This document shows positions 20,790 through 22,728 of a stretch of DNA of 64,000 nt, one piece after another (positions within the stretch are counted from its first letter, which is position 1; every line of letters begins with the position of its first letter). This DNA is from an uncultured Alphaproteobacteria bacterium (GTDB lineage: Bacteria > Pseudomonadota > Alphaproteobacteria > HIMB59 > GCA-002718135), in contig CACMJS010000005.1 of NCBI GenBank assembly GCA_902614085.1, forward strand, positions 1 through 64,000, written 5' to 3'. Below the pieces are notes generated by a model. That model was not told where the DNA came from. It ran no database searches and saw only the letters and a program-made list of their open reading frames with translations. The position numbers were made by a program, and so were the translations under genes.

Positions 20790-21155
20790 ATGGCTACTAA
20801 AGTTTATTTTAATAATTCATGCAGCATTTGTAGATTTGAAATAAATCATTACAAAAAACTACAAAATAATCTTGAATGGATAGATATAAGTACTGAAAAA
20901 AAATCAAAAAAAGATACGAATAAAAACGCCAAGGAATTGTTAAGACGTTTGCATACAGTCAAAAATAATAAAGTTTATTGTGGAGTTGATGCATTTATTG
21001 AAATGTGGTTAGAAATTCCACGATATAGTTTTTTGGCTAAAATAATAAGAAAACCTGTAATTTATCAAGTTTCATGGTTTTTATATGAAGTTTTTGCCCT
21101 AATTCTATTTTACAAAAACAAGAATCAACTAAATAAAATAGATAGAATTAAATGA
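20790..21155 (+). CDS. DCC-family (DUF393) thiol-disulfide oxidoreductase-like protein
   Basis: 121-residue protein with the family's N-terminal pattern: YFNNSCSICRFEINHY, where CSIC stands for the CxxC redox pair. The middle contains VYCGVDAFIEMW, the usual second conserved block, and there is a hydrophobic C-terminal region (YEVFALILFY). Family members are small, probably membrane-associated redox proteins of unknown partner. It overlaps the PsiE-like gene by 4 bases. Confidence 0.78.
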   Translation: MATKVYFNNSCSICRFEINHYKKLQNNLEWIDISTEKKSKKDTNKNAKELLRRLHTVKNNKVYCGVDAFIEMWLEIPRYSFLAKIIRKPVIYQVSWFLYEVFALILFYKNKNQLNKIDRIK

Positions 21156-21538
21156 ATACATATTTTGAATTATTAGAGAAAATAGTACTGTCCGTACTTA
21201 TTGTTTGTACGATCATAGCCATTGGAATGGAAGTGCAAGGAATGATTGCAGTTTATAGAGTAACATTAGCAGATATTCTTTTATTATTCATTTACATTGA
21301 AATAATTGGCATGATTAAAGAATACTGGATCTCTAAAGTTATTAGAATGAGTTATCCTTTATTTATTGCAATGACAGCTCTTGCAAGAATGATAATTATG
21401 CAAAGAAAAGATGTGGATCCTTCAGCCTATGTTTATGAGTCAATAGCAATTTTAATTATAGCTATCGCTATTGTGGTTTTAAGAGTGCGTCATATGGAAA
21501 TACTTAATAGACGATCTAAAAAATTATCTGACGATTAA
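21152..21538 (+). CDS. PsiE-like small membrane protein
   Basis: 128-residue integral membrane protein with about four helices, resembling the phosphate-starvation-inducible PsiE family. Recognisable stretches include ADILLLFIYIEIIGMI, ISYPL-like MSYPLFIAMTALARMIIM and AIVVLRVRHMEIL. Its role is unknown even in E. coli, where expression depends on phosphate and cAMP control. It overlaps the DCC gene and precedes the photolyase-like gene by 11 bases. No pho box was recognised upstream of the operon. Confidence 0.75.
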   Translation: MNTYFELLEKIVLSVLIVCTIIAIGMEVQGMIAVYRVTLADILLLFIYIEIIGMIKEYWISKVIRMSYPLFIAMTALARMIIMQRKDVDPSAYVYESIAILIIAIAIVVLRVRHMEILNRRSKKLSDD

Positions 21539-21549
21539 ATAATACATAA

Positions 21550-22728
21550 ATGTTTAAATCTAATATCAGCTTTGCTGAAGAGCAACTTTTATCTTATTTG
21601 CCTAAAACAGGAAAATATTATGAAGCAAATAGAAATTATAGTGAAGACAGATCTAATAATAAAACTACTTCTTTATTATCTCCCTTCATTAGATATAGAT
21701 TAATATCTGAAGAACAAGTTCTAAAAAAAGTTTTAGAAAAATATGAACCAAGAGATTGTGAAAAATTCATCCAAGAAATTTATTGGAGAACTTATTGGAA
21801 AGGATGGCTGGAACATAGACCATCAGTTTATTCTGATTATTTAGAAGATAGAAATAAATTAATTGAAGAATTTGGTAATAAAAAATTTTATTTAAATGCA
21901 ATTTCTGGAAATACAAATCTCTCATTTTTTAATAATTGGATTAATACTCTCAGAGAAGATGGGTACTTACATAATCATGTAAGAATGTGGTTCGCCTCAA
22001 TTTGGATTTTTACTCTTAAATTACCTTGGCAACTTGGAGCCGATTTTTTTATGCAACATTTATTAGATGGTGATCCTGCTTCTAATACTTTATCATGGAG
22101 ATGGGTTGCTGGGATACACACTAAGGGTAAAAATTATATAGCAAGAAAAAGTAATATAGAAAAATATAGTAATATTAAAATATTAGATAATGAAATTTTA
22201 AATGAAAATGCTAATCCTTTAGTTGAAGAAAAAATTTATAATGTCAATGAACTACATTTAAACTCTGATTATAATTTAGAAGAGATAAAATATATTTTAA
22301 TACCGACTGATGAGTTAAATATTTTAAAAGATTTAAATCACAAAAAAGTGAATGTCTTTACAGGTTTACCAATTGAAGATTATAATGATCACAATTTCTC
22401 TGAAAAAATAATTAAACATATAAAAAGTATTTGTATTTCATGTTTTAGTGATGATGATTTTTATAAAAATATTAAAATTGATATTGAATTTGAAAGTTAT
22501 TTTGAAAATTTAGACAAATGGATAGAAAAATTTCAAATTCAAGAAATATATTTACCCTATGTTACTAAGGGAAATTGGAAAAAAATTTATAAAAAAATAA
22601 TTACAAAATATCCATCTATTAATTTTATAATTTTTAATAGAAAATATGATGTTAATAGTTGGATTTTTTCAAAAAAAGGTTATTTCAAATTTAAACAAAA
22701 TATTCCAAATCTGATTACAAAAATTTAA
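21550..22728 (+). CDS. photolyase/cryptochrome-like FAD-binding protein lacking an N-terminal antenna domain
   Basis: 392 residues. Photolyases are usually about 450-500, with an N-terminal Rossmann antenna domain before the helical FAD-binding domain. Here the FAD domain begins at once: FAEEQLLSYLPKTGKYYEA, then KTTSLLSPFIRYRLIS, EIYWRTYWKGWLEHRP, DGYLHNHVRMWFASIW and DGDPASNTLSWRWVAG, the last being the flavin/DNA-lesion pocket. After about residue 225 comes a different alpha/beta-looking segment (EIKYILIPTDELNIL, EIYLPYVTKGNWKKIY, NFIIFNRKYD) that could be a displaced nucleotide-binding domain. A light-driven repair or sensing role is likely. Whether it repairs CPD lesions is unknown. Confidence 0.8.
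   Translation: MFKSNISFAEEQLLSYLPKTGKYYEANRNYSEDRSNNKTTSLLSPFIRYRLISEEQVLKKVLEKYEPRDCEKFIQEIYWRTYWKGWLEHRPSVYSDYLEDRNKLIEEFGNKKFYLNAISGNTNLSFFNNWINTLREDGYLHNHVRMWFASIWIFTLKLPWQLGADFFMQHLLDGDPASNTLSWRWVAGIHTKGKNYIARKSNIEKYSNIKILDNEILNENANPLVEEKIYNVNELHLNSDYNLEEIKYILIPTDELNILKDLNHKKVNVFTGLPIEDYNDHNFSEKIIKHIKSICISCFSDDDFYKNIKIDIEFESYFENLDKWIEKFQIQEIYLPYVTKGNWKKIYKKIITKYPSINFIIFNRKYDVNSWIFSKKGYFKFKQNIPNLITKI

Follow-up and report, generated by a model that had tools for sequence, protein, structure and literature searches.

The open reading frame at 21550-22728 of the window (the whole stretch of 64,000 nucleotides that was analyzed, from an uncultured alphaproteobacterium) encodes a protein of 392 residues, which we interpret, with a probability of about 85%, as a photolyase of the NewPHL type that carries the two standard domains of the superfamily in reversed order. 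What the analysis shows is the gene, the order of its domains, how each of them is predicted to fold, and the family to which the protein belongs. On the sequence, a light-driven enzyme for the repair of cyclobutane pyrimidine dimers (CPDs) is the best reading, since most of the catalytic residues of the E. coli photolyase are kept. The gene places a photolyase of reversed order in a streamlined, SAR11-like open-ocean alphaproteobacterium that has two other photolyase-family genes.

The gene and its catalytic domain

The frame starts with ATG and ends with TAA. The features of the gene and its surroundings are as follows.

20790-21538: upstream genes, a DCC1-like thiol-disulfide oxidoreductase (PF04134) and a PsiE-family protein (PF06146), assigned by Pfam
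21550-22728, + strand: NewPHL-type photolyase gene, 392 residues, stop codon included (ORF list, translation and homologues)
21550-22218, + strand: catalytic FAD domain, residues 1-223 (PF03441, structure match and residue pairs from the alignment)
22219-22281, + strand: linker, residues 224-244, modeled without regular secondary structure up to residue ~242
22282-22725, + strand: C-terminal α/β domain, residues 245-392, of predicted photolyase antenna fold (model, structure comparison, profile chain and conservation)

Both the frame and its domain order are real and conserved, and chance is excluded by full-length homologues with the same order, which occur in Actinomycetota and Verrucomicrobiota as well as in Alpha- and Gammaproteobacteria (132 loci were confirmed, of which 78 were kept). 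Their hosts include SAR11-like and SAR86 single-cell genomes, Nevskia, Wenzhouxiangellaceae, Curtobacterium, Microcella and one Spartobacterium, among others. With the source genome counted in, homologues were found in 28 of 37 genomes of its genus (E <= 1e-60), and same-order homologues in 27 of 385 genomes of its class. Two genomes of the genus hold a C-terminal fragment only (G001:C1:315753-316010, which contains three stops, and G036:C93:22546-22671), with ~48-49% identity; these are perhaps decayed copies. The Wenzhouxiangella limi copy (L061, 4974-6209) is split by an in-frame stop into ORFs of 90 and 314 residues.

The DCC1-like neighbor is kept in 55 of the 56 loci of the lineage and in two of the 22 others; since it is so rarely kept outside the lineage, the gene neighbors were not used to assign function. 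A PsiE gene lies directly upstream at two Pelagibacteraceae loci as well, in surroundings that are otherwise different. The two other photolyase-family genes of the genome combine PF00875 with PF03441 and DPRP with PF03441 (PhrB-type), respectively; the former scores below every NCBIfam cut-off, with the plant-type cryptochrome model giving its best score.

A preliminary description of the gene had placed FAD-binding segments within the first 15 residues and had considered the N-terminal antenna domain to be missing. The match to FAD_binding_7 (PF03441) in Pfam covers residues 73-199 (3.3e-19) and so begins well behind those segments; residues 1-223 nevertheless superpose on the catalytic halves of photolyases (1iqr 174-411 with Z 15.5, 1dnp 195-461 with Z 14.3), from which we conclude that the catalytic domain begins at the N-terminus despite the late start of the Pfam match. 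The absence of an N-terminal antenna domain is borne out, as Pfam matched neither the antenna domain PF00875 nor the DPRP domain PF04244 (N-terminal in PhrB and FeS-BCP) in the 392-residue protein. The model of the whole protein, built from a 55-row alignment (pLDDT 95.3, pTM 0.92), displays helices up to residue ~207, followed by five strands alternating with helices. Comparison of this model with the PDB gave a list that was filled by the catalytic domain, with the C-terminal half hardly aligned.

Alignment to the E. coli photolyase (1dnp) pairs E76 with E274, W79 with W277, N142 with N341, R145 with R344, M146 with M345, W160 with W359, N179 with N378, W183 with W382 and W185 with W384; we take these E. 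coli positions to contact the dimer or FAD or to carry electrons. Arg342 is changed (H143); all 17 class I rows have Arg at this position, whereas 51 of 52 NewPHL-type rows and all 17 rows of the SPL (short photolyase-like) proteins have His. Trp306 of E. coli, presumably the third electron-carrying tryptophan, is paired with Phe108, in a part of the alignment that is weak.

By analogy with photolyases of this fold and conserved residues, and with the NewPHL literature, the N-terminal helical domain would bind FAD and a flipped-out CPD, and blue light would drive electron transfer from the reduced FAD to the dimer, which would then split. The substrate DNA is most likely single-stranded, a specificity taken from the NewPHL literature.

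Photolyases and cryptochromes are not separable by fold alone, and the protein could in principle be a light sensor of the cryptochrome kind that does not repair DNA. We consider this very improbable: the dimer-contacting positions are kept throughout the family (N142, M146 and W79 in 52 of 52 NewPHL-type rows, W185 in 50 of 52), and DNA repair is reported for relatives. The DASH cryptochrome model TIGR02765 (NCBIfam) scored 54.3 bits, below its cut-off of 317.05.

A different substrate is raised by Haney et al. (2022), who suggest repair of 6-4 photoproducts for Phr4/5/6 (PMC9426592). The same activity might be expected here from the reversed order, which is common to Phr4/5/6, and from the fact that the C-terminal domain finds its top structural match in the antenna of PhrB, a 6-4 photolyase. 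The catalytic domain, however, has a single cysteine (C70) and lacks the four-cysteine Fe-S set, while a separate PhrB-type gene is present in the same genome. Moreover, N142 and M146 are as in the aligned CPD enzymes, whereas eukaryotic 6-4 enzymes have, as we understand it, a His pair at these places. Repair of 6-4 photoproducts is thus quite unlikely, and CPD repair is the reading that we retain.

The C-terminal domain

The last ~165 residues had initially been described as α/β, and either a circularly rearranged antenna domain or a new fused domain had been proposed. The α/β architecture is confirmed, with strands at residues 248-252, 268-272, 309-313, 332-336 and 358-362 of the whole model and helices between them. 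The last 163 residues modeled alone gave a pLDDT of 90.9 and a pTM of 0.85, so the region is confidently modeled rather than disordered, and it does not align with the standard helical domain either (profile probability 0.1). Residues R364, D367, W371, G377 and F379 are conserved in the 55-row alignment.

When the C-terminal model was subjected to VIA comparison, N-terminal antenna domains of photolyases and cryptochromes accounted for 18 of the top 19 rows. The best match is PhrB (6dd6; Z 9.2, 117 residues, 3.0 Å), the PhrB and FeS-BCP antenna domains span Z 9.0-9.2 and E. coli 1dnp follows with Z 8.8 (145 residues, 4.1 Å, model 16-163 on chain 1-166), although many of the Z values fall in the range 7-9, which the tool calls common. 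The first universal stress protein (Usp) appears at rank 20 with Z 7.1, tied with weaker photolyase rows. The remaining top-19 row is the chain 7pua_Ff; 7pub_Ff heads the catalytic-domain list. These chains, from a Trypanosoma mitoribosome assembly intermediate, match the catalytic domain with Z 14.5 and the antenna domain with Z 7.3, and represent a photolyase-fold protein in ribosome assembly with its domains in the ordinary order.

Foldseek was equivocal and gave no match to the C-terminal model at E <= 0.001. Ordered by E-value, its list begins with universal stress proteins (from 2.9e-3 downwards), which would suit a nucleotide-binding, universal-stress-like domain of the HUP type, unrelated to the antenna, that provides nucleotide or stress input in place of a relocated antenna. 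Antenna and Usp domains probably have a common general fold, as the class I antenna profile matches the Usp profile with a probability of 43.8 over 78 columns. Z (9.2 for the antenna versus 7.1 for Usp) and the Foldseek TM-score and probability, which place PhrB first (0.58 and 0.99, versus TM-scores of 0.33-0.41 on the query for the Usp rows listed), favor the antenna. The profiles do so as well, with a probability of 12 over 30 columns for Usp versus 91.7 over 129 columns for a set of small proteins encoded next to SPL genes. We therefore regard the HUP-type domain as unlikely and favor the antenna domain.

The profile link to the antenna family runs through these small proteins. When the 55 rows of the C-terminal domain were compared directly with the 17 rows of the class I antenna, the profiles did not match (probability 3.4, score 21.2, with two of 50 column shuffles scoring as high). 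The C-terminal domains match 11 rows of the SPL-adjacent small proteins with a probability of 88.6 over 138 columns (score 41.5; the highest of 100 column shuffles reached 18.9), and the small proteins match the 17 class I antenna domains with a probability of 93.7 over 131 columns (score 49.5, compared with at most 19.5 in 100 column shuffles). Enlargement of the small-protein set to 15 rows, by four Deinococcus sequences (one small protein and the C-termini of three fused proteins), gave the above probability of 91.7 to the C-terminal domain and 96.5 to the class I antenna. In the control comparisons, the DPRP profile reached 32 over 111 columns against the C-terminal domain of the 392-residue protein, and against the small proteins Usp reached 60 (36 columns) and DPRP 16 (55 columns). 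Pfam detects PF00875 in four of the 11 small proteins, with a best E of 0.013, below the Pfam cut-off. Among 13 genomes, an HMM of the C-terminal domain detected the fused copies in three but, in the ten SPL genomes, none of the small ORFs next to the SPL genes, and the link to the small proteins hence relies on profile-profile comparison. The same HMM gave one weak additional match in the source genome (E 0.01, contig C2).

Since antenna domains lead the structure comparison and the profile chain via the SPL-adjacent proteins leads to the same family, the models support an antenna domain that was not lost but relocated whole to the C-terminus. The proposal of a new fused domain finds no support. 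That of a rearranged antenna is supported as to the fold, but the strand order is ordinary and the domain appears to have moved as a unit, without internal rearrangement. This superfamily antenna domain, placed behind the catalytic domain, most likely packs on the latter and covers the FAD site, as judged by analogy.

Pfam searches with each of the 55 C-terminal domains found no family common to all; the commonest match, ALP_N (four of 55, best E 0.013), was taken as chance. When PDB sequences were searched with the profile of the C-terminal domain, six matches lay within E 10, the best at 0.019; five of the six are ETV6 fusions, and the matches were taken as spurious.

FAD-first relatives and the genes downstream of SPLs

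The tree contains 86 catalytic domains, namely 69 FAD-first rows (52 NewPHL-type and 17 SPL) and 17 class I rows, and was rooted at the midpoint. The FAD-first rows, with the SPL rows beside the NewPHL-type rows, are separated from class I with a support of 100/100, at a deep split where, as the tree program warns, long branches meet. All 52 NewPHL-type rows cluster together (99/98). Their group includes the protein of Ruegeria sp. TM1040 (Roseobacteraceae), which matches the 392-residue protein over 97% at 35.5% identity and serves as a proxy for the characterized proteins of Dinoroseobacter shibae and Methylobacterium mesophilicum, listed in PMC13274461 as A8LJA9 and M7YZC8. On the basis of this topology, the lack of the Fe-S cysteines and the proxies for characterized proteins, the protein is filed as NewPHL-type.

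The SPLs, which Xu et al. are said to have described in 2021, reportedly consist of the FAD domain only, without an α/β domain, and have reportedly been proposed in print as antenna-less ancestors of the photolyase superfamily. In all 14 SPL loci examined, an antenna-like small ORF lies directly downstream of the FAD-only gene. The loci comprise all ten SPL genomes among the 385 genomes of the class and four more relatives, and cover seven of the 20 order relatives with an SPL-type frame. The small antenna-like genes downstream of the SPL gene are located as follows.

L125, 1034-1429, - strand: small antenna-like gene
L126, 2160-2579, + strand: small antenna-like gene
L127, 2172-2633, + strand: small antenna-like gene
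L152-L162: small antenna-like genes

Twelve of these ORFs were found by script: eight, in the four HIMB59-like and other loci, certainly overlap the FAD gene by four bases, and the rest overlap it by four or eight bases or lie 14 bases apart. The other two (L152 and L156) were read from ORF lists, inside longer frames.

Ten plasmids also contain an SPL-like match. The plasmid of Deinococcus sp. QL22 has the split form, with a small overlapping gene that is annotated as a hypothetical protein and matches PF00875 at 2.3e-4, below the Pfam cut-off. The form on the Deinococcus sp. AJ005 plasmid is fused, with PF00875 at 7.2e-4 in the C-terminal part, again below the cut-off, and two further Deinococcus records are fused likewise, as judged from their sequences. 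One genus thus has the module both fused to an SPL-type FAD domain (three records) and separate (QL22). The plasmid records of Ruegeria, Asticcacaulis, Novosphingobium and Niveispirillum are fused and of the same type as the 392-residue protein. The SPL-like genes of two Persicobacter plasmids have an extra C-terminus, which Pfam did not match in L173, and were left out of the antenna count; in both, the SPL-like gene is followed, with slight overlap, by a second full-length photolyase-like ORF (L173, 3495-5015; L176, 3570-5039). Among 198 genomes of the phylum of Microcella there were 11 matches at threshold, the identified one being the fused Microcella copy, and among 398 genomes of the phylum of the source bacterium there were 23, one of them at SPL strength.

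We tentatively propose, at somewhat less than even odds, that all photolyases with the FAD domain first, NewPHL and SPL alike, belong to a single old branch. In this branch the antenna module would always come after the catalytic domain, whether fused to it (NewPHL, Phr6 and some Deinococcus) or as the next gene (SPL), usually with an overlap of a few bases. If so, the SPLs proposed as antenna-less ancestors would be two-subunit enzymes, as the chain from the C-terminal domain through the small SPL-adjacent genes to the ordinary antenna domain predicts, and the superfamily would be deeply split by an inversion of the domain order rather than by the gain of an antenna. The downstream antenna-like gene itself has a bearing on the published proposal that the ancestral photolyase lacked an antenna domain.

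Comparison with known systems

The architecture is not new, since reversed-order NewPHL, Phr7 and Phr4/5/6 proteins are already in print, and the gene adds another photolyase of this kind. The identification of the C-terminal domain through the profile chain, together with the regular downstream gene of the alphaproteobacterial SPLs, may add to published work. In the literature searched, the two-gene reversed form is described from cyanobacteria only (Haney et al., 2022; PMC9426592), and earlier reports from elsewhere are possible.

NewPHLs are listed as one of eight groups in PMC9178010. Haney et al. (2022; PMC9426592) describe Phr7 of Prochlorococcus as having its FAD domain at the N-terminus, a 'Z-domain' at the C-terminus and no Fe-S cysteines, and cite Emmerich et al. 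(2020) for D. shibae and M. mesophilicum, where proteins of this kind repair CPDs in single strands. The 392-residue protein resembles NewPHL and Phr7 in having the FAD domain first and the second domain last, and in lacking both the Fe-S cysteines and an N-terminal antenna.

The same source (PMC9426592) reports a reversed-order photolyase that is encoded by two genes (phr4 and phr5) or by one (phr6) in marine Synechococcus and Cyanobium. The domain order is the same as in the present protein, but Phr4/5 is split over two genes whereas the latter is fused, and Phr4 and Phr6 are reported there with four conserved cysteines, compared with the single one in its catalytic domain. SPLs have a related FAD domain, fall on the same side of the tree and have His at the class I Arg342 position; their polypeptide is FAD-only, with the antenna-like domain in the next gene at the loci examined, whereas the 392-residue protein carries its α/β domain at the C-terminus.

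PhrB and FeS-BCP resemble it in the fold of the antenna domain, that of PhrB being the top structural match, but their antenna (DPRP) is N-terminal, the Fe-S cysteines are absent here and the DPRP profile matches only at the probability given above. Class I CPD photolyases have both domains, their folds and most of the catalytic residues in common with the 392-residue protein; they carry PF00875 at the N-terminus, in the opposite order, and the protein described here lies on a separate branch (100/100).
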